Both the position numbers and the translations under genes were made by a program. This document shows, piece after piece, positions 28,215 to 53,278 of a DNA stretch of 64,000 nucleotides. The DNA is from Asterias amurensis. Lineage: Eukaryota > Echinodermata > Asteroidea > Forcipulatida > Asteriidae. The stretch is from the NCBI RefSeq assembly GCF_032118995.1, contig NC_092655.1:12658406-12722405 (forward strand). The letters run 5' to 3'. The notes beneath the pieces are model-generated. The model did no database searches. It was not told where the DNA came from and was given only the letters and a program-made list of their open reading frames with translations. Positions within the stretch are counted from its first letter, which is position 1, and every line of letters begins with the position of its first letter.

Positions 28215-31200
28215 TCACCTCGTATCCATCACTTCACCTGTTTTTTTTTCACTGATCCCCTTCAGGTATGGGTCGTACTGCTGGGGGATGCTTTGGAATA
28301 AGATGATTTTCTTGCGGATTTGATTCGGTGTGTCTTGATAGTAGTTTTTGACATCTCTCGCCATTGCCTGGGAGGGAAAAACAAACAAATAAATACCAAA
28401 ATAGTAAAGCTGGCCTGGACTTACATGGAGGCCCTGGGGGTCATGGTCTTCGTTGCCCCTATTTTGGCCTTGGTGCCCCCTCAAAAGTTTCCCATAGACT
28501 TCTAATGGAAGTGCACACAAAATGAAAACAGCCTTGCCTTCTCCAAGATATTGATAATAATATTATAATAATATTGAAGTCTTATATAGCGCAAGTATCT
28601 ACCTAACAAGGTACTCAAGGCGCTGTGCATATACAAACTATCAGAAAGATAGTTTTATGAAGTGATTAATTCTGAGACCCAATTATGTAGCACCCTGTAA
28701 GAGTTTTCAAGGTGCTACGGCGCATTCAGCAGCCACAACCAGAAACACCGGGGCGAACCCCTTCTCTTTTCGTTAAGTGCACTGGGTTCTTTTACATGCG
28801 TTACACAACACATGGAACCATTAGCTTTACGTCCCAACCGAAGGGCGAAGCAATGGTTAAATGTCTTGCTGAAGGACACAAGTGTCACGGCTGGGGATTC
28901 GAACCCACACTCTGCTGATCAGAAACACCAGAGTTTGAATTCGGTGTTCTTAACCGCTCGACCACGGCACCTCCACGATGAAACTCCAGACGGTGATGTT
29001 TGATTGACATCAGTGATGTTTGAATCTTTGCATGGTGCGGAAAAAGAAGTAACTTGGTAGACTTGGAGGTACAGCCAAGTGTAAATCTCTTTTGGGAGGA
29101 GGGAAGGCTCTGAAAAGAGCCAGTGTACATAGTCGTGTTCATTCAACAATCTACTCTGCTCACAACTTACATGTAGTTAGACCACCAAGCTGGCGTGAGT
29201 GAATCTTATGTGTTAGCAACGGAGACCACAACAATTTAATGACTTGGTTGTCAGTTAAAGAAATAGTTAACTTGATTTACAAATACCTTGTAATCTTCAC
29301 CGTATGTTTCCATCATGTAAACACAGTATCGAAGGAGGGGTTGTGATATCCGTATACCTCGACCAGGTGGTACGTTGGCCATATCCTCAAGGGCTACAAA
29401 AAAAGACAACAAAGTTATTTCCATTTATAATAAAAATGCTGGCAATGCAACAAAAATCCAACCGAGCTTACTGCTGAGTTCACATTGACTTGAATAAGTA
29501 TGAACGTCTAGCTATTAAATCGTTTATTTATATATTTGTGTAGTTCATAATCCTACACATTAAACATGTTAAAGGCAGTGGACACTATTGGTAATTACTC
29601 AAAATAACTATTATCATAAAACCTTTCTTGATTATGAGTAATGGGGAGAGGTTGATAGTATAAAACAAGGAACACGTTGCCTTGGATCGGACGAGTTGGT
29701 CAAAACAAAAGCGTTTGTAACCGTTTTTTATAAAATGCATATGGTTGGAAAGATGTTTTAAAAGTAGAATACAATGATCCACACAAGTTTGCCTCGAAAT
29801 TGCGTGGTTTTCCTTCTACTGTGCGAACTAACATGGTCGGCCATTTATGGGAGTCAAAATTTTGACCCCCATAAATGGCCGACGTGTTAGTCGACGAGGT
29901 AAAAGGGAAACCACGCAATTTCGAGGCATGTTTGTGTGGATCATTGTATTCTACTTTTACAACATCTTTCTACCCATATGTATTTTATAAAAAACGGTTA
30001 CAAACGCTTTTCAAAGACCAACTCGACCGATCCAAGGCAACGTGTTCCTTTAAAGAGTGATTACCCAATAGAAACCTTTCCGTTAAAGCAGATCATTCAA
30101 AAAAATCTGAAGTTTCACACTGTTGCAAGATTCGTAATAATACACTGTTCAAGGCAGTGGACACTATTGGTAATTACATAAAATATTTATTAGCATAAAA
30201 CCTTTCTTAGGGACAAGTGATAGGGAGAGGTTGATGGTATAAAACATTGTGAGAATCCGCTCGAGAGAGAAGTAATTTTCCACGAATTTGATTTTGAGAC
30301 CTCAGGTTTAGAACTTGAGTTCTCGAAAGCAACCATCTAAACGCACACAACTTCGTGTGACAAGGGTGTTTTTTTTTCTTTCATTTTATCTCGCAAGTTC
30401 GATGATCGATTGAGCTCAAATTTTCAAAGGTTTGTTATTTTATGCACATGTTGAGATACACCAACTGTGAAGGCTAGTCTTTGACAATTACCAATAGTGT
30501 CCACTGTCTTTAAGTCTATTTTTGTTTACGTTAATTTTGGTCATTGCCTTAATGAGTGAAGGAAATAGACACTACATCCACATCTATGCCGGTACTTGTC
30601 AGTGCTTTTCAGTAGTTTAACGAGGGTTGTGTGTGATGTGTCGCAGTTGGTGGACACAAGTGCGTGGTGCTCTTTACATTTACAAATGGTGCACGTAAAA
30701 AAAAAAGGCCATATGATTGAACACACATAAGACTTTCACAGTCTATAGATGGATTGCAATACGCGTCCAGGCCTGTATGCTTCGTTTTTGAAAGGGCAAG
30801 GGCACCAAGGCATTTTCCCCCTGGTATAGGGCACCCTATGATGAAATTGCAAATTTCTACTGAAGCATTTCAAGGGCACCAAGGCAATGACCAGGGGACA
30901 TGGAGGCAATCGCCTTCGTTGCCTCCGTGAAGTGTATCAGGCCAGTGCGTCATTGAGCGCCAGCTTTGATGTATTTTACAGGTGAGGAGTGTCACGCACA
31001 GTGTGACACCCGTGCACCATTCCCGTGTAAAATACATCAAAGATGAGCGGTCAATGACACGTATTTCAATCCATCCATTAGGACATGTAGGACCTATTAC
31101 AATATATAAATTCTACAAACATACTTACCATGTAAAACAAAGACCTTTGCTGGGTCTTTCGGTGCAATGTCGGCCATCTTGGATATGTCTAGTGCCTTGT

Positions 31201-33856
31201 GCTTCATAAACGCATCCTACAAATACCATGGGAGAGGCGATTATGGATTACATATTAAATCTACATTGTAACTTTATTATCAATCAAACGAAAGGGATCA
31301 AATTTCGACTGGCCTTTTGTAAACTAACCAAGCAAATGGGTTACTCCACCAATGTAAGTCCAGTGCGAATAGCCTAGGAAGGTTCCCCCCCCCCCCCCCG
31401 ACTTCAATGGGCAGATTAACTAACCGGCAGAGCCGATAAGTCCAGTGCTAACACCATCTGGGTAAAAGCCTCCCCTTTAAACAGCACATCCGGTCCCCCT
31501 AACCTAGTCCCCAATGATATATGATCGTCGGGTGACAGACCTGACGATCACGTAACGTGGCGGCCTGGTTGTACCTGTAAATGTCTTCTGAGTTAGTCTT
31601 TTCAGAGCTTCCCAGTTGAGTTTACCCATGTCTTTCAATTGTGGATGCTGGTAAGGTTCACCCATTGGAAAACAGTCTAACATGAATGAACACGGCTTAA
31701 AACTTCATGGAGGCATTGAAAGCAAGCTTTAAAACCCTAACAGACCAAACCCTTCAGAAACATACTGCCCAAATCCTTCAATATCCTTCAGTTTGAAGTT
31801 GTCGTAAACCTTAAGTGTCCAAATCCTTCAATATCCTTCTCCTTATTGTAAATGAACATACATGTACTATCCCAAATCCTTCTAAATCCTTACGTGTTTA
31901 TGATTTAGTTTAGGACTTTGTTGGGGCCCTTGGTGTATTATATTTGATATTAGGTCTCCAATGGTAAGAGCCCAAAACCTTCACAATCCTATTCTGGCCA
32001 AGCTACATGAGACCTAATACCTTCAAAATCCTCCTTTATAAAAATGGCCTAATAGCCCAAGTCCTTCTTAATCTCATCCTCATACAAACTCATAGTGTCC
32101 CAAAGCCTTCAAAATCCTCCTGTGCTGCAGCTCACTAACAACCCAAATCCTTCTTTGTCATACACTTCAGCAATGAGGATATTGAAGGAGTTGGGCCCTA
32201 TAGGGTTATACTGTAGGCGCTTTATTATTAATAATGTTTGCACCAACAAACAAGAATGCTTGACTCAGCTCTAAGCCATAACCCAATATGCCCATAAAAT
32301 GGCGTTCATTGTAGGCTATTCAACCACAATCTTACCCTAGCTTTGGGTATTGGTATTGTCTTGTTGGGGTCGACTGACAAACCAAAATCAGCCAGGTTTT
32401 TCTCCATACTCTTTCTAGGATCCCATGCTTCCTTTAGTGGCTTACTGAAAAGATAAGACATCAAAACAATGATGGTTAAAGCCATTGGACCCTTTCGGTA
32501 CAGAAAAAAAAAAACGTTCACAGATTTACAAATAACTTACAGGGTTTACAGAAGGTAGTGGTGAAATACTTCTCTTGAAATATTATTCCATGAAATGCTT
32601 TACTTTTTGAGAAAACAGTAAAACAATATCAATTCTCGTTAACGAGAATTACGGATTTATTTTAAACACATGTCATGACACGGCGAAATGCGCGGATACG
32701 AGGGTGGGTTTTCCCGTTATTTTCTCCCTACTCCGATGACCCGATTGGGCCTAAATTTCCACAGGTTTGTTATTTGATATAGAAGTTGTGATACACGAAG
32801 TGTGGGCCTTGGACAATACTGTTTACCGAAAGGGTCCAATGGCTTTAATCGTTTAAATGGTGAAAATAATTTAATAAATTACAAAAGCAACTAAGAAAAT
32901 CATAGTGATGACAGGCACTTTAGAGCATGACTTCCAGCATGTGGGGATAGCAGTACAGTTTGGTGTGTGGTGGAAAAACTGTAATTGCCCATCATGAGAA
33001 TGAGATTAAAAGAATGGTGGATTGTGGGTCACAAAAAAAACAATTACAATGTATACACGTGTAGATTGAGCCTGGTTCATACTTCCTTTGAAAGCGATAC
33101 AAACTTTAACGACACAAATCCGCAACAATAATTTGCACCAATCAAAGTTGAGTTTTTCGTCCTTATTTTCCCGAAAATATTTAGTCAGTCATGTTTTAAT
33201 TTCATTCCCATATCGTATGGTGATTGGGTATCCTTTTAAAAGGGCCGGGTATTTGATTAGTATAAGTGTTGAAATTTGGGCAATCAATGGTGGTGCTTTC
33301 CCTTTGAAAACCGCAAAAGTTTCTGTATGGCGCCACCACTTTTATCATTCGATATGAAATAATATAGTATCTTTTTTTTTACCTCAATGAGATATCCCTT
33401 TTTGTAAAAATGAGTGAAAAAGTGGTTGCGCCATACGGAAAGTTATCTGAACTCAAACCTCGTCTATTTAAATACATGGAATAACGCCTAACGGTGCTTT
33501 GAAACGCTCGGGTCTTCGACCCATGCCACGCCAGAGCGTTAGAGTTGTAACTAAATGTTCATAATGCATGCTGTTGTCATCCGACTCTCGAATCCTTTTC
33601 ATTCATTCCAATCACCAAGGTCAAAAAAAAGAGTCACTGACTCAATCAATCAAAGTCATTTCAATTTTCAAACTCAAATTAATAAAAGCGAAAGGGATTT
33701 TATTTTTAGTATAAAAAAAAGCTAAAAAATAAAACAAAAAATAGAAATAAATAATTTATATTTTTTTATTTACCAAGTAATTGCTGGCATCTTCTTTGCC
33801 CTTTTCCACATGCGACGCCTGTTAACACTGTATCTAAACTTCTTTCCTTTCGCCAT
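28215..33856 (-). CDS. NOP16: Nucleolar protein 16, five exons
   Basis: Minus-strand exons: 33856-33774, 32444-32336, 31216-31129, 29393-29287, 28367-28215. All junctions are GT-AG and in frame; the product is 179 residues (human 178). The N-terminus MAKGKKFRYSVNRRRMWK matches the basic KFxYSVNRKR start of NOP16. EAWDPRKSMEKNLADFGL and VDPNK follow (residues about 33-57). YGEDYKAMARDVKNYYQDTP (about 124-143) is the highly conserved C-terminal block, followed by NQIRKKI. NOP16 acts in the nucleolus in assembly of pre-60S ribosomal particles. It starts 195 bp from HIGD2A on the opposite strand, so the two probably share a promoter. Introns hold MITE-A, -B, -C and -J copies, a SINE-I and an unusual CCTTC-rich repeat. 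The last about 25 residues diverge from vertebrates. Confidence 0.95.
28414..28508 (+). repeat. Family T repeat
   Basis: ACTTACATGGAGGCCCTGGG then TTGGTGCCCCCTCAAAAGTT and CCCATAGACTTCTAATGG. Parallels 16228-16290, 17940-18010 and the split copy at 46823-47128. In NOP16 intron 4. Confidence 0.45.
28555..28975 (-). mobile_element. SINE family I, copy with alternative 3' tail
   Basis: Minus-strand head GTGGTCGAGCGGTTAAGAAC, B-box GGTTCGAATCCCC, and body CACTTAACGAAAAGAGAAGG. The 3' part (CTCAAGGCGCTGTGCATATA, TATATAGCGCAAG, then ATAATATT tail) differs from the 9873 copy's tail but matches 8735-8920. Confidence 0.75.
28995..29110. repeat. Family L repeat fragment
   Basis: TGAATCTTTGCATGGTGCGG and GTGTAAATCTCTTTTGGGAG followed by CTCTGAAAAGAGCC resemble the family L phrases at 8960-9130 and 63565-63730. 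Confidence 0.4.
29573..29666 (+). mobile_element. MITE-B copy 5, left 94 bp only
   Basis: AGGCAGTGGACACTATTGGT after TTAA, running to GTTGATAGTATAAAAC, where a MITE-C begins immediately. The rest of the MITE-B is not found beyond it. Confidence 0.8.
29667..30049. mobile_element. MITE-C copy, intact palindrome
   Basis: Nearly identical to 27487-27868, including the GGAGTCAAAATTTTGACCCC centre. The right end has TTAA (30050-30053); the left joins MITE-B without a TTAA. In NOP16 intron 3. Confidence 0.9.
30152..30509 (+). mobile_element. MITE-B copy 6
   Basis: AGGCAGTGGACACTATTGGT at the left and ACCAATAGTGTCCACTGTCT at the right; TTAA at the right only (30510-30513). Lies 100 bp beyond the preceding MITE-C. 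Confidence 0.85.
30769..30943 (+). repeat. Family R repeat, copy 1
   Basis: AGGCCTGTATGCTTCGTTTT, AGGGCACCAAGGCATTTTCC, and GGAGGCAATCGCCTTCGTTG then GTATCAGGCC. The same order is seen at 49246-49422 and, deleted, at 21499-21560. The ends AGGCCTG / CAGGCC are short inverted repeats. Confidence 0.7.
30948..31060. repeat. Foldback hairpin next to family R
   Basis: CTTTGATGTATTTTAC at the left is the complement of GTAAAATACATCAAAG at the right; outside them TCATTGAGCGC pairs with GCGGTCAATGA. The loop contains GTGTCACGCACAGTGTGACA. In NOP16 intron 3, about 70 bp from exon 3. Confidence 0.75.
31744..32200. repeat. Degenerate CCCAAATCCTTC repeat array
   Basis: Eight copies of a motif near CCCAAATCCTTCAAAATCCT occur at about 31768, 31817, 31869, 31970, 32011, 32056, 32097 and 32140, spaced irregularly by 40-100 bp. 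One inverted copy (GGATATTGAAGGAGTTGGGC, about 32178) closes the array. In NOP16 intron 2; no protein or known element recognised. Confidence 0.6.
32480..32844 (+). mobile_element. MITE-A copy 4
   Basis: TTAA (32476-32479, 32845-32848) bounds inverted ends AGCCATTGGACCCTTTCGGT / ACCGAAAGGGTCCAATGGCT. NOP16 intron 1, 35 bp beyond the exon 2 acceptor. Confidence 0.95.
33314..33449. mobile_element. Palindromic MITE-J copy 2
   Basis: AGTTTCTGTATGGCGCCACC and GTTGCGCCATACGGAAAGTT as inverted ends; centre CCTCAATGAGATATCCC. NOP16 intron 1. Confidence 0.75.
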
Positions 33857-34051
33857 TTTCCTGATATTATTCGCTAAAAAGCGAGACAAAACTGTAAATT
33901 TAAATCAATCCCACGTCAAAACACGTGCGACTTCAGATTCTGAATTTTCAGTGCGGTACCCAGACTCGTTTTAATACAAAAAGGAAGTCGTCTGGTTCCC
34001 GACTACTTTTAGTCTTGAACTTTGACCTCATTGTGAAATTCAGCAATCAAG
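33857..34051. promoter_or_regulatory. Likely bidirectional promoter of NOP16 and HIGD2A
   Basis: The 195 bp between the two opposed start codons holds a perfect CACGTG E-box (33922-33927) and a nearby CCCACGTCA. AAGATGGCTGCC at the HIGD2A start codon resembles the YY1 site AAGATGGCGGC often found at housekeeping promoters. No TATA box is seen. NOP16 is a reported Myc target in mammals, and CACGTG is the Myc/Max site; functional use here is inferred. Confidence 0.6.
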
Positions 34052-35074
34052 ATGGCTGCCTCCACAGGAGAAGTTACGAAACGGCCCGGTAAAAAACTTT
34101 ATGGTGACAACTTTCACCATTATCCAAGTTCTTCGTCGGTGTCCAACATTGGAGAAATGCCGATAGAGCTTGCAGACTGGGAGCCGATAAATCCCATCGG
34201 TTTCAGGGAGAAATTCAAGAAGAAAGCCCTGGAGAATCCGTTCGTTCCTATCGGTAGGTGATCGTTTTGTGCATATTGAATAGGGGTCAACAAACTTTTG
34301 GATTGTTATGTCACTTTTTGTGTTTTGTTTTGGATGGATGAAATTTGGGGTTTAAGTTCATTTTTACCATACGACCAACATAAGTAATTGTTAACAAAAA
34401 GTATCAGCACTGATCAGCTGATGATGGCAATCCCACATCATGATCATGTGATCATGTGATGGATATTGCTCCATGTTTAGCCCCACTTGTGTGGCCAGCC
34501 AAGGATAGCTGAATCCTGCTTGGCCAAGTGGGGCTTGTGATCTGGATGAGAGTGCGATAATTCTGAAGTAATTTTGGTAAAAAAGTCCCCAGATCTCCTG
34601 CCACCACTTTTCATTCCCGTTTGGAGTAGAACTAATCTTTTTAATTTAAATGAGAAACTCTCTCTTTTTATTTATTTTTATTGGTCACTTATGGCAAGAT
34701 ACTGGTAGTTTCACATAATAAATGCCTGTATCCTGTCTCCACTTTTTCATTCTTTATGAAATCAAATAGTAGCGAACTTACTCAAAATAATTAGTGAGAA
34801 AGTGGTGGCAGGATACACATTCCCTACACGTACTTGGTGACAAAGCTTAAAAGTTATTGCTAATTTTCTTGGGCTTGTTTCTTTCTCTCTTACTACAGGT
34901 GTCTTTGCTACAACATGCGCACTCACCATGGGACTTTACAGCTTCCGTAAGGGTCAAACACAGAGATCACAATTGATGATGCGGTTCCGTGTTGCAGCTC
35001 AAGCCTTCACCATCGGGGCTGTACTAGTCGGCGTTGCTATACAATCTAGGAAGACCGATAAACCGGATACCTAG
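34052..35074 (+). CDS. HIGD2A: HIG1 domain family member 2A, two exons
   Basis: Exons 34052-34253 (donor gtaggt) and 34899-35074 (acceptor ctacag), joined within a glycine codon; 125 residues (human HIGD2A 106). A longer N-terminal region precedes FREKFKKKALENPFVPIG, which matches FKEKFxxKxxENPxVPIG of the family. Then come a first membrane segment (about 69-83), the loop GQTQRSQ, the exact HIG1 motif QX3RXRX3Q (QLMMRFRVAAQ, residues 92-102) and a second membrane segment. The protein sits in the mitochondrial inner membrane and helps assemble cytochrome c oxidase and respiratory supercomplexes. It is divergent from NOP16. The 645-bp intron has a MITE-J-like palindrome. The extra N-terminal 20 or so residues may be lineage-specific. 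Confidence 0.95.
34590..34820. mobile_element. MITE-J variant in HIGD2A intron
   Basis: GTATCCTGTCTCCACTTTTT and GAAAGTGGTGGCAGGATACA are inverted; an outer CTGCCACCACTTTTCATTCC adds a third arm. The GGCAGGATAC ends replace the GGCGCCATACGG of other J copies. Confidence 0.55.
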
Positions 35075-35078
35075 AAAC

Positions 35079-35084
35079 AATAAA
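35079..35084 (+). terminator. Candidate poly(A) signal of HIGD2A
   Basis: AATAAA begins 5 bp after the stop codon. If used, the 3' UTR would be very short; it may be a chance match. Confidence 0.35.
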
Positions 35085-35220
35085 GTGCATAAGAACTTAT
35101 CCAGTTTCCTTGGATGACCCTTCACCGATGTCGTCGTGCAAAGATGTTGCCGAGCATCGAGGATGTTGTCCTTCAAGATCACGTTTGAATCCGGTGAATT
35201 CATGGTGAAAATGCATTTAC

Positions 35221-35799
35221 TTCACCTGTAGAGCAACTGGATTTTCCCTCGCTCAAGGGCACTTCAAATGAGGGAACTTTAAGTTCCCTGTGTGACTAAA
35301 TTTTTAGACTCGTGTCAAAATGACAATCGAGTTATTGAATATGATTAGCAAAGACTGTTGAACTATAAATTGACAACAACAACAGCACTATCAAAACAAA
35401 CAACACCCCAAATCAACAAACAAACTAAACAAATAAACAAACACCTCAACAATCAAACAAATATTTTTGATGTAGAGAGCGCCAGTGTGTAACTTTGCCT
35501 GAAAACATTTCTTCACCTGTAGAGCAACTGGATTTTCCCATTGCTGAGGCAGTTCAAATGACCGAATTTTAAGTTCCCTGTGTGACTAACTTTTTAGACT
35601 CGTGTCAAAATGACAATCGAGTTATTGAATATGATCAGCAAAGACTGTTGAACTATAAATTGACAACAACAACAGCACTATCAAAACAAACACCCCAAAT
35701 CAACAAACAAACAAAACAAATAAACAAACACCTCAACAAACAAACAAATATTTTTGATGTAGAGAGCGCCAGTGTGTAACTTTGCCTGAAAACATTTCT
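35221..35799. repeat. Tandem duplication, 291-bp unit
   Basis: Two near-identical units, 35221-35511 and 35512-35799, each running from TTCACCTGTAGAGCAACTGG through GACAATCGAGTTATTGAATA to GAGCGCCAGTGTGTAACTTT. An AAAC-rich stretch inside differs in length. Few differences, so it is probably recent. It lies just behind HIGD2A and may include part of its 3' UTR. Confidence 0.9.
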
Positions 35800-36061
35800 G
35801 CTGCAAAGAAAAATTCACACATTGCTGTAATGGGTTGGGTGAATGAAGTATGCGCATAGCTAAGTTAATCTTGTGAAGTAAAGTTTTCTTTGCAAGATTC
35901 TAGTATTCTTATATACCTGATTTATTTTTGTTTATAATATCAAACTTATTATATGAAACTGAATAATTTGTTTAATTTAATTAAAGCTCTGCATCATTCT
36001 TGAATTATGTTTCTGTTGATCAGTTTGGTAGGACTGCAGTAGCTTTTTCTTATAGGTTTAA

Positions 36062-36434
36062 CGGCAGTGGACACTGTTGGTAATTACTCAAAATAATTAT
36101 TAGCATAAAATCTCACTTGGTAACGAGTAATGGAGAGAGGTTGATAGTAGAAAACATTTTGAGAAACGGCGCCCTCTGAAGTGAGGTAGTTTTTGAGAAA
36201 GAAGTAATCTTCCATGAATTTGATTTCTTAATTCTGAGGTTTTGAGGTCACGAAATCAAGCATCTGAAAGCACACAACTTTGTGTGCCAGGGCGTTTTTT
36301 CCCCCCATTATTATCTTGCAACTTCGACGACCAATTGAGCTCAAGTTTTCACAGGTTTGTTATTTTATGCATATGTTGAGATACACCAAGTGAGAAGACT
36401 GGTCTTTGACAATTACCAATGGTGTCCAGTGTCT
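36062..36434 (+). mobile_element. MITE-B copy 7
   Basis: CGGCAGTGGACACTGTTGGT left, ACCAATGGTGTCCAGTGTCT right, with TTAA at 36058-36061 and 36435-36438. The right TTAA is shared with MITE-G. Confidence 0.85.
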
Positions 36435-36438
36435 TTAA

Positions 36439-37160
36439 AGGGTCTGTATACATGTGGTAATGACTCTAAAATCAATAAAAGCTTACATGGTAAGAAGTAC
36501 AGCAGCTTTGGATTGTATAATGCATCTTTGAGAACCCTTTTACTTCGAAGTACTGCAGTTAAAGCCATTGGACCCTTTCGGTTCAGAAAAAAAATAAAAG
36601 TTCACAGATTTACAAATAACTTGCAGGGTTTACAGAAGGCAATGGTGAAAGACTTCTCTTGAAATATTATCCCATGAAATGCTTAACTTTTTGAGAAAAC
36701 AGCTAAACAATATAAATTCTTGTTAACGAGAATTGCGGATTTATTTTAAACACATGTCATGACACAGCGAAACGCGCGGAAACAAGGGTGGGGTTTTCCG
36801 TTGTTTTCTCCCAACTCCGATGACCGATTGAGCCTAAATTTTCACAGGTTTGTTATTTGATATAGAAGTTGTGGTACACAAAGTGTGGGCCTTGGACAAC
36901 ACTGTTTACCGAAAGGGTCCAATGGCTTTAAGGAAAAATATATAACTTTTTTACCCCAAAAATATACTACTCCGATTGTTCATTCCAATTGCATATTATT
37001 CTTCCTGCATGTGTGCCCAAGATTTTTCGGCAACATCTCAAAAACACTACCACCTTTTGAAATGAAATTTTCACAGGCTGCTGCTGTACTTATCGAGTAA
37101 TTTGTTATTGCCATTAATTTTCAGGGTCATTACCAAACGTATACACAGACCCTTCAATAT
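36439..37160. mobile_element. MITE-G, split by a MITE-A insertion
   Basis: Left AGGGTCTGTATACATGTGGT and right ACCAAACGTATACACAGACC(CTT) are inverted. A MITE-A (36563-36927) with its own TTAA pair sits inside; outside it the element continues to a TTAA at 37161-37164 shared with MITE-C. Confidence 0.75.
36563..36927 (+). mobile_element. MITE-A copy 5, nested in MITE-G
   Basis: TTAA (36559-36562, 36928-36931); inverted ends AGCCATTGGACCCTTTCGGT / ACCGAAAGGGTCCAATGGCT. Confidence 0.95.
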
Positions 37161-37164
37161 TTAA

Positions 37165-37547
37165 AGGAACACGTTGCCTTGGATCGGTCGAGTTGGTCTT
37201 TGAAAAGCGTTCTATAACCGTTTGTTATAAAATCGGTATGGTTAGAAAGATGTTGTAAAAGTAGAATACAATGATCTACACAAATATGCCTCGAAATTGC
37301 GTGGTTTTCGTGTTACCTCGTCGACAAACACGGTCGGCCATTTATGGGGGTCAAAAACTTGACTCCCATAAATGGCCGACCGAGTTAGTCCGCGACGTAA
37401 AATGAAAACCGTACAATGTTGAGTGCTACTTGTGTGGATCATTGTATTCTACTTTTAAAACATCTTTCTAACCATATGCATTTCATAACAAACGGTTTCA
37501 AACGCTTTTCATAGACCAACTCGTCCGATCCAAGGCAACGTGTTCCT
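37165..37547. mobile_element. MITE-C copy
   Basis: TTAA on both sides (37161-37164, 37548-37551); AGGAACACGTTGCCTTGGAT mirrored by ATCCAAGGCAACGTGTTCCT. The two halves differ slightly near the centre. Confidence 0.95.
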
Positions 37548-37634
37548 TTAAGAGGGAGGAGCCATTGTTTTTCGTTTATATTTTTTTGTGGGTTTGTAAG
37601 TTGAGTTTGAATAATAAATTTTAAATTGTTTTAA

Positions 37635-37987
37635 AGGGTCTATGTAACTTTTGTAGGACAAAAAACACAACGTCCACAGATTTACACTAAACTTACACAG
37701 TTTGAAGATAATGATAGTAGAAAGATTCCCTGAAAAAATTATGTGCTGAGGTGCTGTAGTTTTTGGGAAATGAGTAAAACAATGTCATGAAAATAATTTT
37801 CGTCTCATGAGACCAAAATTATTTTAAGCATTTACAAACGTATTTTCATGAAATTGTTTTACTCATTTCTCAAAAACTACAGCACGTTGGTTAGTAATAT
37901 TTGAAGGGAAGCTTTCCACTATCATTATCTTCAAACCCTCTAAGTTTAATGTAAATCTATGAACATTTTGAAAAGGTCTCAAATCCT
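37635..37987. mobile_element. MITE-E
   Basis: TTAA at 37631-37634 and 37988-37991. The halves are inverted copies: TTTGAAGATAATGATAGTAG against CACTATCATTATCTTCAAAC, and GTAAAACAATGTCATGAAAA against TTTCATGAAATTGTTTTAC. No protein, although a long frame runs through it on the minus strand. Confidence 0.75.
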
Positions 37988-38970: not shown

Positions 38971-38984
38971 ACATGTATGTTTAC

Positions 38985-39440: not shown

Positions 39441-39489
39441 TTCAACTTGGTCGACATCCCCTGGAACACCCTTCTGACACATTCAACCA

Positions 39490-40621: not shown

Positions 40622-40625
40622 TTAA

Positions 40626-40947: not shown

Positions 40948-40949
40948 AG

Positions 40950-41860: not shown

Positions 41861-41861
41861 T

Positions 41862-42229: not shown

Positions 42230-42259
42230 TTAAAGTCATGAATACAATGGATGAGTACT

Positions 42260-42461: not shown

Positions 42462-42469
42462 CAGTGAAA

Positions 42470-43050
42470 GTAAATTTCATGACTTGGGAGACCCATACTG
42501 GAGTTTGTTTTCTATAAAAACTGAAAATGGCCTCAACAAGATCAAGGCAAAGCGAGACGATACGATTTACCTCACTTAATGTAAACACATCAACTTATTA
42601 AATACAAAAAGGTGCACAACCAAAGCTTCTACATATAACACTTGCATTGGCAAATGGTCACTGCATTAGATTAGAGACGGAACGGTCACACCAGAATCTG
42701 CATTGTTCAAGTTGTTATACGGAAATAATTTTGTTTCTTCTTAGTAGTCACCACAATAAAACGTTAAAAGAAATGTTTTTGAAATCATGATCAGTTATGT
42801 TGAAACGTCACAGTCATACCTGATTATGCACAATGCATTTTTTTTCACTCACATTAATTGGTAAATGGTCAAAATCGTTCATTCTATTATTAGTTTAAAT
42901 CAATTTTTTTTTGTTTTTAACTGACTGGCCTGTGTAGTGCAGGCGTACATAATGGTATATTTCACTAAAGAACTTTCAAAATCAAATTGGTGTACATTGT
43001 ACAAAACACGTCACGCTGAAAGAGAGGGTATACCTTTCAGAATTTCTCAG
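42470..43050. other. Intergenic, nothing recognised
   Basis: AT-rich sequence without repeats shared in the window. Confidence 0.4.
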
Positions 43051-43058
43051 TAACTTAA

Positions 43059-43439
43059 AGGAACACGTTGCCTTGGATCGGTCGAGTTGGTCTGTAAAAA
43101 GCGTTTGTAACCGTTTGTTATAAAATGCAGATGATTGGAAAGATGTTTTCAAAGTAGAATACAATGATCCACACAAATTTGCCACGAAATTGCGAGGTTT
43201 CCTTTTACTTTGCGAACTAACACAGTCGGCCATTTATGGGAATCAAAAATTTGACTCCCATAAATGGCTGACCGTGTTACTCGACGAGGTAAAAGGAAAA
43301 CCGTGCAATTTCGAGGCATGTTTGTGTGGACCATTGTATTCTACTTTTAAAACATCTTTCTAACCATATGCATTTGATAACAAATGGTTACAAACGCTTT
43401 TCAAAGACCAACTCGACCGATCCAAGGCAACGTGTTCCT
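43059..43439. mobile_element. MITE-C copy, intact palindrome
   Basis: TTAA at 43055-43058 and 43440-43443; AGGAACACGTTGCCTTGGAT against ATCCAAGGCAACGTGTTCCT; centre GGAATCAAAAATTTGACTCC. Confidence 0.95.
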
Positions 43440-43459
43440 TTAATGGCCATACAAAAAAA

Positions 43460-43720
43460 CGTACTTGGTAAGTAGCACTGCAGCTATAAATACATGTTGA
43501 GAAACAATGCCCTTCAAAGGAATGTGGTTTTAGAAAAAGGAATTCAAGAACTTTTCAATCTGAGAAACGTTTCCCAGATTGTGTATTCTAATTACGGGTT
43601 ATGTGTGGACATAACCACTCCAGATTGATGATCTCTCAAAAACGCTTTTGAAATGAAATTTACACAGGCTTGTTTTGTTGTATATATCTACATTTATATA
43701 GGATTGAAACAAAACTAGCA
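43460..43720 (+). mobile_element. MITE-G-like relic
   Basis: ACTTGGTAAGTAGCACTGCA, CTCTCAAAAACGCTTTTGAA and ATGAAATTTACACAGGCTTG follow the order of MITE-G; a hairpin CAATCTGAGAAACG / CGTTTCCCAGATTG lies inside. Ends not found. Confidence 0.45.
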
Positions 43721-43765
43721 AATCCAAAAACCAAAACCCAGAGGTATACTTTGCTATCAAAGGCA

Positions 43766-43891
43766 CAGGGGTAGATTTCACAAAGAGTTAGGGAGATATA
43801 CAAATTGCATGGATAGTCCTAAGTTAGGACGAGTAACTGGTCCTAACTCGAGATAAGACTAGTCCTAAATCTTTGTGAAATCCACCCCTGG
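43766..43891. mobile_element. MITE-N short copy
   Basis: CAGGGGTAGATTTCACAAAG and CTTTGTGAAATCCACCCCTG are inverted; inside, TCCTAAGTTAGGACGAGTAA and its complement repeat. 126 bp, no protein. Confidence 0.8.
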
Positions 43892-43964
43892 ACATGTTTG
43901 GTCAATACTCACCTGCAACCTATACATCCCAAATTGGGAGATTGCTTGCAGTACTAACCCAGAT

Positions 43965-44206
43965 CCAAAATATGTATTAATAAAAACTTACTTGGTGATG
44001 AGCAACAGAAAGCTGTTGATAGTATAAAACGTTGTGAGAAACAACTCGCTCTGAAGTAAAATATTTTTTGAGGAAGAGGTAATTTCTCACAAAAAATTTG
44101 AGAAAGACTTCAGGCCTGAAGCCTTTCTCAAGTTTGTTATTTTATGCATATGTTCGGATACACCAAGTGAAAATACTGGTCTCTGACAATAACCAACATG
44201 TCTTAC
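43965..44206 (+). mobile_element. MITE-D relic
   Basis: AGAAAGCTGTTGATAGTATA, ACTCGCTCTGAAGTAAAATA and ATGCATATGTTCGGATACAC in MITE-D order, with a strong internal hairpin (TTTGAGAAAGACTTCAGGCC / GGCCTGAAGCCTTTCTCAA). Ends missing. Confidence 0.65.
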
Positions 44207-44394
44207 ACCATTACCACATGTGGCTGTGGCTAAGGTCAGCATTCCTATTCTATAACCTTATCAATGCAGTCAAAGCCAAGAGCCTTAGTCAATGTTACCC
44301 AGTAAGGGAAACACCTTGCAGGAAATTATTCTTGCATTGGATAAGTTCAAAATAGATGGTTAGGGAAATGTACAATACATGTAGGTCTTTGGTT

Positions 44395-44620
44395 TCTGTT
44401 TTTTTTACCCTTACACCGATATGTATTAAGCTAAGTACTTTCCAGAAATCTGTGAACACAAAATCTATAGGCAAATCACTCGGGTGGGATTCAAACCCAA
44501 GACATTTGCATTGCTAAAGGAGATGTCTTACCACTAGACCACCGAGCTAGCCCGACAACTAGAGGCAGTTTGAAGTCGATGCGGTACCTGCTGCTTAGGA
44601 TTCAAACTGCCTAGTTGTTA
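44395..44620 (-). mobile_element. SINE family III copy 3 with hairpin leader
   Basis: Minus-strand head GGTGGTCTAGTGGTAAGACA ... GGTTTGAATCCCACCC; the tail CACATCGGTGTAT-like TACATATCGGTGTAAGGGTA matches the tandem copies at 25321-25835. Upstream of the head the sequence folds: ACAACTAGAGGCAGTTTGAA pairs with TTCAAACTGCCTAGTTGT (44559-44620). Confidence 0.7.
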
Positions 44621-44637
44621 GAGCAGTGGCACATTAA

Positions 44638-44757
44638 AGGCAGTGGACACTATTGGTAATTACTCAAAATAATTGTTATCATAAATCCTTACTTGTTACC
44701 AAGTAAGGTTTTATGCTGATAATTATTTTGAGTAATTACCAATAGTGTCCACTGCCT
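44638..44757. mobile_element. Minimal MITE-B hairpin, 120 bp
   Basis: Only the two terminal arms of MITE-B remain (AGGCAGTGGACACTATTGGT and AATTACTCAAAATAATTGTT against their complements), separated by a short centre that itself pairs (CTTACTTG / CAAGTAAG). TTAA at 44634-44637 and 44758-44761. A nearly complete single hairpin. Confidence 0.9.
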
Positions 44758-45149
44758 TTAACTACATACTCTCTATATGTTCGTTTTAACCATCAGAAGA
44801 AGAGCATTGTAGAAAGTTTGGGTTGCTGTTGCTGTTTAGGGGTATGATGAAAAGAGGGGGTTACTTTTAACAAAAATGTACTTTTATCAAAGGAAGTTAC
44901 ATGGATACAGCACCACCTCCTTATATAAGTTCTCAAAGATGTGCAATACACATTTTATAGATGCAATAGATTAACAAAATTCTACATCTATACATTAAGA
45001 GCAAGAATATAGGAATACATTGTAGTAGATTAAAAATTGAAAGATTCCTTATTCCAATAAATGAATCTCTTCAATAATGTTTAAAAAATTGTCCAGGTGA
45101 CGTCAGCTGATGTGCTTTTTCTTCTATGGTACAAAGCCGTTTTTTGTTT

Positions 45150-45420
45150 TTGTTTTATGAGATGATCTTCCCATCAAGGGAACTCATCAAACTCCAACGA
45201 GGGGATATAAACACCAAGCCGGCAACAGCCAATCTCTCTCATACTAAACATTGGTTTAACGTCTACGATTATGAATTGCACAAATCAACAAATTGTGATT
45301 CAGTATTAGACGACGATACTTACTCTAGTCAGTGTGAAAATCAGCGGTTAGCTTGGGAGATTCGAACCCACAACCTTGTAATTGCAAGTCTAGCAGTCTG
45401 ACCGCTGGACCACAATGGAA
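45150..45420 (-). mobile_element. tRNA-derived SINE family II, full copy
   Basis: Minus strand: GTGGTCCAGCGGTCAGACTG, then AAGGTTGTGGGTTCGAATCT (B-box), CTAACCGCTGATTTTCACAC, GAGAGATTGGCTGTTGCCGG, TTCCCTTGATGGGAAGATCA, ending in an AAAAC tail. The best-preserved family II copy, with complete head and body. Confidence 0.8.
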
Positions 45421-45424
45421 TCGA

Positions 45425-46575
45425 CCAACAGTCGTCATGTTCAAAATGATAACCCCCGTGGGATACATGTACAGTACATCACTCATGTTTCCCTGAGCCA
45501 TGTACATGCGTCTTTGTAGGACATCCTGTGATTGGTTCTTGACCGATAACAGTTCAGCACCATGCTCATAATAGCAGGTAATAAACCAACAGATGTAGCT
45601 TCAGCTTAAAATTCAAGTCTTCCTTCCCCTCGTCCCATTGTTGCTTGTGTACCAATAAGTAACAGTTTCTATCATAAACCCTCACCCTTCAAAATCATCT
45701 TTATCCTTTTTTTCCCAATATGAAGGTTTCCAGAGGAATGAGGCATGCAACTGCCCATTGAAAACAAAAAAAAGGAAAATTTTCAAAGGCACAACGCAAG
45801 TGCGGAGCGAGGCAGCCAAAACGCCACAGGACATGATACCCACAATGGTACCCTAGAAAATGTTGAGGTTTATTATGCTCTTAGGTGCATTGTTAGCATG
45901 TACATGATGTACTAGGCTTATTTTACATGATTGTAGTTGTACACTGTTGTTGCCAGTCATATACAGGCATATATTAGGCTAACAAACAAAAAATCACGTT
46001 GTTAAAAAATGCGGAATTCCGCGGTTGCATGCCTGAGGAATGGAGGACTTGGGCCCAGATAACATTACAACAGCGTATAACTGGGCCAGGCATTCCAATC
46101 TTATCCAAGTCCAAAAGTATTGGTGTGGATTGGATTAGGAGAAGAGATTACTGGAGGATTAAGGGCACCTGTGGCTTCGAGAGTCAGGGTTTGCAAATGT
46201 TACAGATCTCAATCTGTGCTTGGGTACAAAATCAATGTTCGCTTAACCTCAATCCCCCTTCCCTAAACCTGTATACCCTTTTCCCAATTGCTGTTTAACC
46301 TGTTAATTGCCACCCTAGGACCGTCCCAAAAATATTATCTGCTTGACACCCAAGCATGAAGTAAAGTGGTTGTAGGATTAGTCTTTTAAAAAAGGTAGTT
46401 TCTGGAGCTACATATATGGCAGTGTATATAGCCTCAATACGATTCATGGTTCTTTTAAAAAAACAGCCTAGGGGTCGTTACTGGAAGCTGCTGGCTCTTT
46501 TTTCTTTTTTTTTCACTCACAAGTTTGTCAGAGATATACAAAGCAATTATATAATAAAATGTGGCATTGAACTCT
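45425..46575. other. Intergenic, 3' flank of ARL10
   Basis: No exon, repeat pairing or known element recognised. The 99-codon frame at 45999-46298 has no recognised domain. No canonical minus-strand poly(A) signal was found near the ARL10 stop. Confidence 0.4.
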
Positions 46576-46578
46576 CTC

Positions 46579-49500
46579 TCAGTCCTTGGACAAGGATACC
46601 ATTAATTCCATGACTTGTTTGACGTTGTCGCTTCCTGCGTTCAGTACTGTCTGTGTCTCCACTACATGGACCTCTCGTTCTTGGGACGGGACGGATGGAC
46701 TGAGGGCTGATATAAACTCGGCTCCCCGCTTCGCTGTGGCCTGATCCTGGTTTTTAAAGAACGAAAAAGGGAAACAAATTGCAGTTAGTATTTTATATTT
46801 TTGCTGATTACTAAGATTCGTGCCTGGATTTACACAGAAGCCAAGGCCTCTGTTGCCCTGGGCCCAATTTCATAGAGCTGCTAAGCACAAAAATTTGCTT
46901 AGCATGACATTTCTTACTTAATAAAAACAGGATTACCAACCAAATTTCAACGTAATTTTCAGGATGAGCAAACAACAGCTGAATACCAGTAACAAGAACT
47001 ATGCAACAAATTGAAACCTGGTTGGTAATCCGGTTTTTATACCAAGGAAGAAATTTCATGCTTAGCAAATTTTTGTGCTAAGCAGCTATATAAAATCGGG
47101 CCCTGGTGCCCCTTCAAAACTTGCTCATAATAATAATAATAATAGTAATAATAATAATACCAAAACTTATATAGCGCCCTAATCATGTAAACATGCTCTA
47201 GGGCGATGAACATGGAAAAATAGACAAACTAAAAAATAAGAAAATACGGAATTATATCAACAGGAACTAAAGATTTTCAACAGGAAATACCTTCTGCAAA
47301 ATGAGAACAGATTTGCACTCTTGGATGAAATTCCAGGCCTGAGTGTTATAATCTGTGCGCTAATACCTTGCTGCTGTGTACATAATAGAAGTTCATCAAC
47401 GTTCAATGGGAGTCGGGTCGGTCATTTTTGGAAAATTTGTTAATGTATAGATTGATCTTCTCATTAAATTGTTCCCATTTTGGGGCATTTCATCATCATC
47501 ATACTTCGTCCTTAGACGGAATAGTAGAAGCAGCATTGATGAAGTGGTGCCAGGTTGCTTTGTCCCTCATGAGTTGTCGGGTCTCGGTTGGACCGAGATT
47601 ACATGTACCCTCAACTTGGCAAAACTCAAATATTGATGACATGTATAGCTCTATGATTATGACTTTGGTGATCTTCACAAACGAAATCATTACAGTTTAC
47701 ATGGCTCAAATTTGTACACTGGACCACAAACCTGAGGCCTGTCTACCTAAAAGACTGCATAGCACCCATGTACCATCTAGGGAAGGCCTGCGATCGAGCC
47801 GGGACGTTACTCGTCTGTCCATCCCTAAGAGTAGCAGGCGGGTAGGCGATGGATCATTCAGTGTTTTCGAGCCAACTCTCTGGAACTCATTACCAAATAC
47901 CACAAGGTCCTCTCAAACAGTTTCCGCTTTCAAACGCAACCTCAAAACTTATTTATTCTAGTGTATTATATTTGCTATTGTTTGTGTGTAAAGCGCATTG
48001 ATCATTTCTTTGGAATCGCGCTATATAAGAGCTGGTTTTATATTGTTATTATTATTTTATTATATTATTATTACACTTTGTCTTGAAACCACCTAATAGG
48101 AGACACTTTACCTGTTTATTTGCAATGAGAACCAGGGGCACACACTTGAGCCTTTCATCGGCAAGAAGTTTGTGCAGTTCCTCTTTGGCTTCTGGTAAGC
48201 GTGCCTCATCAACGGCATCAACAACAAATACTAAGACGTCAGTTCCTTTGATGAAGTTCTCCCAGTACAGGCGCACACTCTGTTGGCCACCAACTAGAAC
48301 AGCAAAATATTATTATGATTTTATGACCAATTGTCTAAACAATAATAATAATAACCGTATTTATAACGCGCCTTTTGCCAAAGGATACAAAGCGCCAGGT
48401 ATTATTACTGCAAGGAGTTGGACGAAGTTTGAGATATAAACCCTAATCCTTAGCAACCATGTAATGGTTTACAAGGTGTTGTGGCGCAATATGCTGCCAA
48501 TCCAGCCAGGAACACCGGGACGAACCCCCTCTCTTTACGATAAGTGCACGGGTTGTTTTACATGCGTTTACACAACACATGGGACCAACGGCTTTACGTC
48601 CCATCCGAAGGACGAAGCAATGGTTAACTGTCTTGCGTAAGGACACAAGTGTCATGGATGGGGATTCGAACCCACACTCTGCTGGTCAGAAGTTTGAATT
48701 CAGTGCTCTTAACCGCTCGCCCATGATGCTTCTTCCCATGTTTTTGTTCTTCTTGGGGGCAGGGGGGGAGAACGAGAGAAACTCAATATTAAAAGCTAAA
48801 CTGAATAGCTGCCAGGTCACCGATTGCAAGAACACTTTACAGGTAAAATTAAGGCCTTTCTGCGCTACATGTAGCTAGCCAGTGAAAATTTGCTTGACAG
48901 AATTCCCTGCTTCCATAAGCGCTGATTCTTTGCTTACAGTAAGCAGATCCATGAAATTGGGCCTGTTTGGTTCAGGACTGCATTATAAGCAGTGGCTACA
49001 AAAGCAATGTAATTTTTTTACTTTATAAAACTTGGATTCAGGGACCTGATGAAAGCATAAAAAGATGAAGAGCTGCCCATAACAAAGCTAGAAACGAGAT
49101 GCATACAAGAACTTTAAAAAGAAGGATCACTAAAATGAAACCTGAAACTACTGCTTTAATGGACATAGTCCGACTAGGCGTGTGGTTCAACCATACTTTG
49201 AGGGCCCAGAACCCCGTAGGCTATCGATTTGCAGATCACCCAACTCAGGCCTGTATGTCTCGTTTTTGAAAAGGCAAGGGCACCAAGGCATTTTCTCCTT
49301 GCTACAGGGCACCCTATGACAGGGCACAGTTTCTACTGTGTATAGCATTTTAAGGGCACCAAGGCAATGACCAAGGGGCTTGGAGGCAATCGCCTTCGTT
49401 GCCTCCATGAAGTATCAGGCCCAACTCAACATCTCCTAGTTAGGAACTAAACCTACATACCTACTCTACACCACAATTTAAAAAGATTCAAGAAAGAAAC

Positions 49501-52285
49501 AAGACTTTACCTTCCCATATGTTGAGTGTAGCAGCTTTTGTCTGTACGCACATTACATTGAAACCTTCTGTTGGATCTGGAGGCCCTGAGCTTTCAGAAT
49601 GTGTCAGGCAGCGTAGCAGACTGCTTTTGCCGGAGTTATCAAGACCCAAAACCAAGATGCGCTTCTCCGGTAAATCCTGAAATATTATATGTAAAAGAAT
49701 ATGTACATTTTAAATGGACATATTCAGGAAAATAAAAACTCTTGCAACAATACTTCTGCTACAGATCAGGGCCAAATTTCATAGAGCTGCTAAGCGGTCG
49801 CACTAAATACCGACAACTCACAACCCCTCACGACAACAAATTTTTAATGCACTTTAAAAGAACATAAGTCCACCATCAAATAAATGTAAAAGAGTCGTAC
49901 ATGTATGCATCTAACTCACTGTTGAAAAAATTGTATTTTTAACTGCAAAAAAAAAGGTTGTTTTACCCTGAATTAGTAACGACCGCAAAAATTTGCCATG
50001 TTGTCTTTCGACGTACAGTACCTGTAGTACCTGGATGTTACCATTATACTGCTGGGGTAAATTCTAAGGGTTGAGTTGTATTTTTGCCTTCTTTTTGGTA
50101 TTAGCTGCTGCTTATTTCTGTAATGTAAAATTACTAAGCCGCCAATCTGGAATTTGAAGTTTCAAGGGGAGATCTAAATATCATATTTTGTTCCAACTCC
50201 ATGAGAGGCACATAAATAAAATGGTAAATAATCATCTTGCATTTTGTATTACCTTTGCGGTGTAATGCTAATGGTATCATACAGGTATGTCAAAAGACAA
50301 CACGGCTGATATTACCGTTCGTTACTAAATCTGGTTAAAAAAAAACTATTTTTCACAGGAAAAAAAATATATTTTTCAACCGTTTGAAAGTGATTTAGTA
50401 GATGCATATAACTCTTCTGCATCTTATGTTCAATTGTTCTCATAAAGTGCATTTAAAATTTGTTGTTGTGAGTTGCCGTGAGTAGTTGTGAGTTGTCAAT
50501 ATTCTCAGTGCGACCCCTGCTAAGTGCTTGTGCTAAGCCTAACTAAGCACAACAATTTGCTTAGCATGAAATATATTCCTTGATAAAAACAGGATAACCA
50601 ACCAACCAAACTTCTATTTGTATGGCGCCACCACTTTTTTATTCGATATGTATGATGATTTGAAATAATTTATCGTAGCGTCATACGTTATCGACCCTCA
50701 TATGTTTTCGGTCCCCAACTTTGATTCCCGTTTACTGCGAAATTGTGCAAGCTGCACCGGTGACAGAAGCTATGCAGTTTACTCACGGTCTGTATTTTCA
50801 TCAGGCTTAATCATGCTGAGAATAAAGTTTCCTGTCGTTGGTTATGCTCAAACATTTATAAAATGATTGATTTTTGGTACTAATCACTAGTGCATTATTA
50901 TGCCAACATTCAAGTGAGTCAAAGAAACATCATCCAACCTCGAAAGTTCAAAACAAAACTACTATCTGCTAGATTGAGTTTCATTCTGCTTTAGTCACTA
51001 GATTGATCACGTGAGGTGGTTACTATTTGGGATTCTATGGTGCGCAAATGTGGGGAAAATATTAAAATATTTTAAGTGAAAATGACAACAATTTTTTAAA
51101 TTTATTTACTGCATAACTGTTATAAATTCCGATAAGCGTAATAAATATTAAGTCTACATTTAAGAGAAAATATCATAGATTGGTTTCTTATCTCCTGAAA
51201 CCAAACATTACTGGTCTGAAATGGGGAAAACGGATTGTTATGAAGTGTGAGTGCATCAAGGGGGGGGGGGGGGGGGGTGGGGTGTTTTACTTTCATGCCT
51301 TATGATATCTCTGGATTCTAATATAGTAGCCATAATGCCTTAGGACAAAAATGTAATTAAATTTGTTAAGTACTAATTGAATAATAGGAATAATATTTTT
51401 GATTTACTTTGCCCGCCATACTAGCTTCTGAATATTCAATAAAATACCAACCAATGAAAGGTGTGAAAACATATGACGTTGCTCCAATGTTGTGCATGCA
51501 CTTGTAAGCACTGTCAATGGCGGACTGTCTCTCGCAACGCAAAACCAAAACTTTAAAAATTTCAACACACCATGAAGTGAAAGTGTTATTGTTAAAAAAT
51601 TGGCTAGATGATTTGAAAAAAAAAATATTTAGTTTTTGATTGTGAACAATTTTCCTGTTATCCTACTGAAAACACATGACACCAGGATACCTCAATTGTC
51701 AATTGAGGGGTGACCGAGAGATTTCCCTTTTTGTTAAAATTAGTGAAAAAGTGGTGGCCCCTTTCAGCAAGATAAAAAAAAGGGCAGATGGATGCAGAAT
51801 TTTAGCCCTACTCTGTACAGTTTGTAGTGTAGTGGGATAACTTTCCGTATGGCGCCACCACTTTTTCACTCATTTTTACAAAAAGGGATATCTCATTGAG
51901 GTAAATTAGATACTATATTATTTCATTTCGAATGAAAAAGTGGTGGCGCCATGCGGAAACTTTTCCGTGTAGTGTAACTAAACAGTAAAAGAAACAAGTG
52001 TAAACCACTTGCTTGGGTGTCCCTTGCTTGCAGTCAAACTCGCCATTGGTTCACACACACTTAATAATTGAACAAGAGAAGAAATCCGATTGCCAAAAAT
52101 CAATGTTTTCATACCGTCTCTGCAACCTCCTGGATGGCCATGTCACCCCCTTGAAGCTCGGCAGACTTCCTCCTGTGTCTAAGGATTGCGTAGACAACCC
52201 CAGTAATAACGGCTCCGGACCCAACGATAACCGTAGCCTTTTTCCACAAACACAAATCCCTGAACCAAGTTGCACCTTCCGCCAT
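46579..52285 (-). CDS. ARL10: ADP-ribosylation factor-like GTPase 10, four exons
   Basis: Minus-strand exons: 52285-52115, 49676-49511, 48293-48112, 46746-46579; all GT-AG and in frame; 228 residues (human ARL10 about 244). Instead of a myristoylated Gly2 there is MAEGATWF and then a membrane anchor at about 17-35 (TVIVGSGAVITGVVYAIL), as in ARL10. P-loop GLDNSGKS at 68-75; switch I threonine in PTEGFNV (92-98); G3 is EVGGQ (112-116), with Glu in place of the usual Asp, a change also present in the human protein as I recall it; WENFIKGTDVLVFVVDA follows; G4 NKQD (171-174) spans the last intron. Small GTPase, probably membrane-bound; its cellular role is not well defined. Introns carry a LINE end, SINE-I, MITE-M with a hAT insertion, families R and J. 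The start was chosen at ATGGCGGAAG; an upstream in-frame stretch has no ATG. Confidence 0.95.
46823..47128. repeat. Family T repeat split by MITE-M
   Basis: GGATTTACACAGAAGCCAAG and GCCTCTGTTGCCCTG lie left of MITE-M, and CTGGTGCCCCTTCAAAACTT lies right of it. Joined, these follow the 28414-28508 repeat. Confidence 0.55.
46860..47103. mobile_element. MITE-M copy, full palindrome
   Basis: GGGCCCAATTTCATAGAGCT mirrored by AGCAGCTATATAAAATCGGG(CCC); inner pairs GCACAAAAATTTGCTTAGCA and ACAGGATTACCAACCA. 244 bp, no protein. ARL10 intron 3. Confidence 0.85.
47130..47265. repeat. SINE/LINE tail-like fragment
   Basis: AATAATAATAATAG tract followed by ACTTATATAGCGCCCTAATC and CTCTAGGGCGATGAACAT, resembling the inverted tail of the SINE-I/LINE families (ATATAGCGC motif). 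Confidence 0.4.
47700..48066 (+). mobile_element. LINE 3' end with reverse-transcriptase C-terminus
   Basis: A frame ending at 47961 carries CLPKRLHSTHVPSREGLRSS, then GDGSFSVFEPTLWNSLPNTT and FKRNLKTYLF, the familiar C-terminus of CR1/L2-type LINE ORF2 (FSVxxPxLWNSLP...FKxxLKTYLF). The 3' UTR includes AAGCGCATTGATC and CGCGCTATATAAG and ends in TTATTA repeats. 5'-truncated, sense opposite to ARL10 in whose intron 3 it lies. Confidence 0.8.
48338..48731 (-). mobile_element. tRNA-Leu-derived SINE family I, full copy
   Basis: Minus strand: GGGCGAGCGGTTAAGAGCAC, GTGGGTTCGAATCCCCATCC, GGGACGTAAAGCCGTTGGTC, then CTTTTGGCAAAAGGCGCGTT and an ATT tail. Collinear with the 9873 copy over its whole length. 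ARL10 intron 2, same strand as the gene. Confidence 0.85.
49246..49422 (+). repeat. Family R repeat, copy 2
   Basis: AGGCCTGTATGTCTCGTTTT ... GGAGGCAATCGCCTTCGTTG ... AGTATCAGGCC, as at 30769-30943. ARL10 intron 2. Confidence 0.7.
49768..50612. mobile_element. MITE-M copy split by a hAT-like element
   Basis: GGGCCAAATTTCATAGAGCTG at the left and AGCACAACAATTTGCTTAGC, ATAAAAACAGGATAACCAAC at the right belong to one MITE-M half; 722 bp of hAT-like DNA separates them. ARL10 intron 1. Confidence 0.7.
49795..50516. mobile_element. hAT-like element with 8-bp target duplication
   Basis: Inverted ends GGTCGCACTAAATACCGACA / GTTGTGAGTTGTC...AGTGCGACC, and CTGCTAAG repeated directly on each side (49787-49794, 50517-50524). 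722 bp, no reading frame of note, so non-autonomous. Inserted in a MITE-M. Confidence 0.8.
50619..50692. mobile_element. MITE-J fragment
   Basis: TATGGCGCCACCACTTTTTT, ATTCGATATG and GCGTCATACGTTATC: shortened J element with a degraded right arm. Confidence 0.5.
51259..51286. repeat. Poly-G tract
   Basis: About 19 G followed by TGGGGTG. Other mononucleotide tracts lie at about 31385-31400 (C), 53777-53812 (C then A) and 59602-59619 (G). Confidence 0.9.
51835..51967 (-). mobile_element. MITE-J copy 5
   Basis: AACTTTCCGTATGGCGCCAC and GTGGTGGCGCCATGCGGAAA are inverted; a loose third arm (AGTGAAAAAGTGGTGGCCCC, about 51745) lies to its left. ARL10 intron 1. Confidence 0.75.
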
Positions 52286-53270: not shown

Positions 53271-53278
53271 AATGTTAA

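Follow-up and report, generated by a model that had tools for sequence, protein, structure and literature searches.

Introduction

Ancient microsynteny around a divergent gene pair is of a kind already known. The unrelated genes PDCD10 and SERPINI1 (neuroserpin), divergently transcribed like the pair treated here, have been linked since at least the split between vertebrates and sea urchin, as described in a study that compared vertebrates, lancelet and sea urchin and cited a promoter study. Its authors suggest that a bidirectional promoter holds the pair together, and several vertebrates have retained GOLPH4 as a third neighbour (PMC2556349). COL4A1 and COL4A2 are likewise described as divergent genes with a bidirectional promoter, an arrangement retained throughout the metazoans apart from few exceptions (PMC12141075).

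The gene list given for cattle chromosome 7 runs ARL10, NOP16, HIGD2A, CLTB, FAF2 and RNF44 (PMC7655849). A second cattle list holds PPAT, PAICS, SRP72, ARL9 and THEGL (PMC7764440), and AASDH, ARL9, THEGL, HOPX and NOA1 are listed for goat chromosome 6 (PMC9902602). HIGD2A, FAF2 and SNCB are reported near DDX41 on zebrafish chromosome 14, an arrangement like that of human chromosome 5 with the order partly reversed (PMC6005158). ARL9 and ARL10 have been described as vertebrate in-paralogs of a single Arl10, which originated in the metazoan stem and has an N-terminal membrane segment as a trait (PMC8358228). As ARL10 dates to that stem, the full trio of ARL10, NOP16 and HIGD2A can be no older.

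Here we report the arrangement of these genes in the starfish Asterias amurensis. The window, the whole stretch of 64,000 nucleotides that was analysed, occupies 12.66-12.72 Mb of contig C8 (24.4 Mb). NOP16 functions in ribosome assembly and HIGD2A in respiratory chain assembly, and the two genes are unrelated.

Results

Gene order in the window

Four genes lie within 35 kb, in the order THEG (+), NOP16 (-), HIGD2A (+) and ARL10 (-). The features are as follows.

17376..22945, + strand: THEG-family gene, defined by THEG repeat matches at 17376-17453, 18820-18903, 20241-20348, 21355-21423 and 22655-22933 (first, second and fourth below the family cut-off); exon borders provisional
28215..33856, - strand: NOP16 gene, 179 aa, five coding exons (33774-33856, 32336-32444, 31129-31216, 29287-29393, 28215-28367)
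33857..34051, no strand: gap of 195 bp between the NOP16 and HIGD2A starts, presumed shared promoter
34052..35074, + strand: HIGD2A gene, 125 aa, exons 34052-34253 and 34899-35074
46579..52285, - strand: ARL10 gene, 228 aa, four exons (52115-52285 with the N-terminal membrane segment, 49511-49676, 48112-48293, and 46579-46746 with the stop)

The first-pass annotation had read NOP16 (-), HIGD2A (+) and ARL10 (-) in a row between 28215 and 52285. Our gene models and the Pfam and PDB matches agree with it, these limits coinciding with the final base of the NOP16 stop codon and the initial base of the ARL10 start codon. The fourth member of the cluster, the THEG-family gene adjoining NOP16, was absent from it. 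The THEG gene ends 5.3 kb from NOP16, and 11.5 kb separate HIGD2A from ARL10.

We compared hand-chosen open frames with Pfam, a scan that very short or strongly diverged exons escape. Of the 73 frames between 34.8 and 64 kb (at least about 55 aa), two had a match: the HIGD2A control, and a frame assigned to the bacterial family NtdA_N (E 2e-4), which is implausible here and was taken as a chance match. Between 2.2 and 34 kb, 4 of 44 frames were matched, all to THEG. Among the frames scanned, no other credible protein family is predicted between the trio genes.

The window also holds SSF-family transporter exons at 1312-1575 and 3227-3793 (+; the Pfam SSF match is to 1312-1575), which we take to resemble the choline transporter SLC5A7. 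An SSF-like frame that looks very similar by eye occurs in flank segment L029 (L030/L029, about 100 to 86 kb left of the window), so that a second copy of this transporter probably lies about 90 kb leftward. Minus-strand tRNA family matches were found at 25451-25523, 25711-25783 and 44476-44548, while ARAGORN gives only 25710-25783; together with stretches that resemble them by eye around 28.9 and 48.7 kb, they suggest tRNA-derived SINEs. A palindromic MITE-like repeat is abundant (27519-27960, 29585-30060, 53175-53577 and others), its translated frames recurring widely by eye, and a simple tandem repeat at 1799-2155 translates as TNKQ repeats.

The NOP16-HIGD2A pair

All four NOP16 introns are GT-AG. 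The product matches Pfam Nop16 (PF09420) above the cut-off (E 7e-19), its top PDB match is 8fkp, 'Nucleolar protein 16' (E 6e-38), and it is 46% identical to human NOP16. Our genome-wide searches covered 491,506,623 bases in 23 contigs. The Nop16 family gave no match at E 0.001 in such a search, as expected of a gene broken into short exons, and no relatives were confirmed on stray animal contigs in genome_contigs and viral_contigs. Intron 2 contains, at 31507-31704 (-), an open frame of 66 aa with a protein-like look and no Pfam family.

The HIGD2A product matches HIG_1_N in Pfam (E 2e-23). Its PDB matches are to 'HIG1 domain family member 2A' with E 8e-25 against 2e-9 for HIGD1A, and by these values the predicted protein is clearly of type 2A, not type 1. 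Genome-wide, HIG_1_N has at least two matches, the window gene and one on C5 (4 candidates scored).

The divergent pair claimed by the first-pass annotation was recovered: its two genes, NOP16 and HIGD2A, lie head to head with 195 bp between start codons, a distance below 1 kb that is measured between codons and not transcription starts. The CpG observed/expected ratio in and around the gap is 1.14, against 0.69 over 264 kb, a weak hint that one promoter might drive both genes. A CACGTG E-box lies in the gap at 33922. It was not counted as a link to MYC, since 34 of 1353 195-bp tiles in the 264 kb hold one and ten motifs were sought.

In mammals NOP16 and HIGD2A adjoin in the cattle list (PMC7655849), their head-to-head strands there being presumed. 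A single ChIP promoter fragment, chr17:16083944-16084731, is assigned to both Higd2a and Nop16, in rat as judged from its RGD symbols (PMC3440412).

Identity of the ARL gene

The product of the ARL gene contains an Arf domain (PF00025; E 3e-41, 141 bits, profile positions 14-165 of 174). The terminal exon, 46579-46746, is the least certain of the model. It was not recovered by tblastn, motif searches or a home-made profile (true frame 0.8 bits). It was located by listing exons with a phase-0 acceptor, one of the four candidates being exon 3 of NOP16, and picked for its length, its stop and how closely it resembled the human end. The Arf score is 126.9 bits without this exon and 141.3 bits with it; taken by itself, the exon has no significant match in Pfam.

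Is this GTPase ARL10, or a divergent copy of ARL3 or ARL2, in which case the trio would be only a pair? Its top PDB match is ARL3, and none of the best 60 of 261 matches is named ARL9 or ARL10. BLAST against provisional human sequences gives a slight preference to ARL3 (116 bits, with ARL2 and ARL10 at 110 each). In a tree of 13 rows, with nine provisional human sequences and no ARL9, the window protein pairs with human ARL10 (85/90; 86% of 200 bootstrap trees), on long branches, and the ARL10 pair is placed among ARL3 sequences; all 10 inner branches fall short of the tool's threshold for strong support.

Apart from this pairing, two observations argue against an ARL3 or ARL2 copy. The protein has an N-terminal membrane segment like that of ARL10 and not seen in ARL2 or ARL3: residues 17-35 have a mean Kyte-Doolittle value of 2.05, and the values for the provisional human sequences are 2.52 for ARL10, 0.75 for ARL3 and 0.32 for ARL2. 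Furthermore, the genome already has separate exons elsewhere that are ARL2-like (C1) and ARL3-like (C8, at 22.9 and 23.7 Mb); the next best match of the window protein by score in the genome has 39% identity. We therefore regard an ARL3 or ARL2 copy as unlikely. The ARL10 identity, based on membrane segment and tree, appears moderately supported, with BLAST leaning slightly to ARL3.

The THEG-family gene

THEG repeats (PF14912) were matched above the Pfam cut-off in 22607-22945 (E 1.5e-27). Genome-wide, one further locus passed the cut-off, on C17; a weak match on C9 (E 1.8) has internal stops. Two PDB entries served for comparison: 8snb, which we take to be from sea urchin sperm, and 8otz, presumably bovine and holding a THEGL chain. 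The C17 copy scores 234 bits to the 8snb chain and 62 to the THEGL chain, and the window copy 64 and 47. On these scores the C17 copy is the predicted sea-urchin-type one. An unrooted four-row tree, with mammalian THEG left out, joins the window copy with THEGL and the urchin sequence with the C17 copy (support 98). The window copy has nearly the same identity with each of them, 37% with THEGL and 37 and 38% with the sea-urchin-type copies, and pairwise identity does not single out THEGL as its kin.

Comparison with vertebrate gene orders

Our comparison set consists of this starfish and a few vertebrates taken from papers, whose lists are assumed to be in chromosomal order. The human order ARL10, NOP16, HIGD2A, given in the first-pass annotation, matches the cattle list, and the starfish has these same neighbours of the mammalian ARL10-NOP16-HIGD2A-CLTB-FAF2 block (PMC7655849). 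In the mammalian ARL9-THEGL block it is the paralogue of ARL10 that adjoins THEGL (PMC7764440, PMC9902602), and in the starfish ARL10 itself lies near THEG. The listed mammals have two separate loci, the starfish one cluster. Since ARL9 and ARL10 derive from one gene (PMC8358228), the starfish order unites both mammalian neighbourhoods.

ARL10 lies on the HIGD2A side of the pair in starfish and on the NOP16 side in the cattle list (PMC7655849). A local inversion of the pair or a move of ARL10 had been proposed to account for this, and one inversion of NOP16-HIGD2A suffices. With the human strands presumed to be ARL10 +, NOP16 - and HIGD2A +, the starfish arrangement, strands included, results when the NOP16-HIGD2A unit is inverted alone; a move of ARL10 would need an additional flip.

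Extent of the linkage

SRP72, PAICS, CLTB and UNC5A are present in the mammalian lists (PMC7764440, PMC7655849). Their families and complexin were sought genome-wide, and 2 of the 5 were found on C8, a contig that makes up 5% of the genome: SRP72, 1.1 Mb from the window cluster, and complexin at 6.2 Mb, with another complexin match on C5. We take complexin to belong to the 5q35 and 4p16 regions. Clathrin light chain was matched on C17 and PAICS on C4, neither on C8. The UNC5-type UPA domain has clear matches on C21 and C6, its lone match on C8 being far below the cut-off (E 0.39). A wider mammalian-like block with clathrin light chain, PAICS and UNC5 was accordingly rejected, their families being matched on other chromosomes. 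In cattle, clathrin light chain adjoins HIGD2A (PMC7655849), unlike in the starfish. Extension of the conserved linkage beyond the cluster appears patchy from these matches.

In the flanks, 41 of 59 listed frames were compared with Pfam, giving three EVC2-like exons, one p24 (TMED), one ALMS motif and one SSF match, and three further matches that are low-complexity. The EVC2-like gene has its three PF12297 matches, each below the cut-off, at L017:2135-2440, 7219-7506 and 8453-8770 (+), and on the opposite strand a coiled-coil gene, in minus-strand frames of L013-L015, adjoins it. In human, EVC and EVC2 form a head-to-head pair, so the EVC2-like and coiled-coil genes may represent another old divergent pair. 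The p24-family exon, L020:3713-3955 (-), is TMED4/TMED9-like by eye; we assume that it belongs to the TMED4/TMED9 subfamily and that TMED9 lies at human 5q35. A frame of 1184 aa at L011:3971-7522 (+), noted along with further frames in L011-L012, is open without a Pfam match.

Common descent or chance

The chance of one given gene lying within 25 kb on either side of NOP16 is 1.0e-4, and HIGD2A, ARL10 and THEG all do. These genes were chosen after the fact; the mammalian lists were fixed beforehand, and with about 1e-4 per gene this makes common descent the better explanation of the linkage in starfish and mammals. The earlier proposal that the linkage goes back to the deuterostome ancestor is supported by its presence in both starfish and mammals. 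In favour of a coincidence, with the genes brought together separately on the way to starfish and to vertebrates, one can cite the small number of lineages compared and the three of five further neighbours that fail to follow (clathrin light chain, PAICS and UNC5). Against such a coincidence stand the low chance per gene, the fact that HIGD2A, ARL10 and THEG, all beside NOP16, are mammalian neighbours of NOP16 or of the ARL paralogue, and the close NOP16-HIGD2A promoter arrangement also found in rat (PMC3440412). We consider coincidence hardly credible, and a conserved ancestral neighbourhood of THEG, NOP16, HIGD2A and one ARL9/10 gene, duplicated in vertebrates with the copies losing different genes, very likely.

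Common descent may also hold with only the NOP16-HIGD2A pair under constraint, ARL10 and THEG having remained near through slow drift of local order, which is enough to explain their proximity. The different sides taken by ARL10 in starfish and cattle, its 11.5 kb distance from HIGD2A in starfish, and the looser conservation of SRP72 and complexin on the same chromosome all speak for a constraint limited to the pair, to which we give slightly better than even chances. This reading and that of a conserved neighbourhood are compatible, differing solely in the reason they give for the persistence of the linkage.

Discussion

These results point to the following history. The last common ancestor of echinoderms and vertebrates would have had THEG, NOP16, HIGD2A and one ARL9/10 gene close by one another, with a short divergent promoter common to NOP16 and HIGD2A. 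The starfish would have retained all four. In vertebrates the block would have been duplicated with the genome, a step that we infer, and the copies would have lost different genes, one retaining ARL10-NOP16-HIGD2A and the other ARL9-THEGL; under such duplication and differential loss, the union of the two mammalian neighbourhoods in the starfish order is as expected. A break between NOP16 and HIGD2A would cut one or both of them off from the core promoter; for this reason the pair would move as one unit, and a single inversion of this unit could account for the changed position of ARL10. The persistence of the pair is probably due to the putative shared short promoter, an explanation like that proposed for PDCD10 and SERPINI1 (PMC2556349). 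That the two mammalian neighbourhoods are remnants of one deuterostome cluster, intact in starfish, with a pair made indivisible by one promoter, seems to us fairly probable as a whole.

Within the literature covered by our search, no report of NOP16-HIGD2A-ARL10 linkage in an invertebrate was found. The locus offers a small, testable example of pre-vertebrate microsynteny, in which two unrelated genes share a putative divergent promoter of 195 bp and a THEG-ARL link connects two separate mammalian loci. If true, it would provide an independent argument that ARL9 and ARL10 arose by duplication of a single gene, as well as a natural inversion in which a promoter unit stays whole, and would join ribosome and respiratory-chain assembly via one putative promoter.

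Compared with the described systems, the starfish locus involves different genes from PDCD10-SERPINI1 and is more compact, with 195 bp between NOP16 and HIGD2A start codons where about 0.9 kb is given between the PDCD10 and SERPINI1 transcription units (PMC2556349). COL4A1 and COL4A2 are members of one family (PMC12141075), whereas NOP16 and HIGD2A, like PDCD10 and SERPINI1, are unrelated genes.
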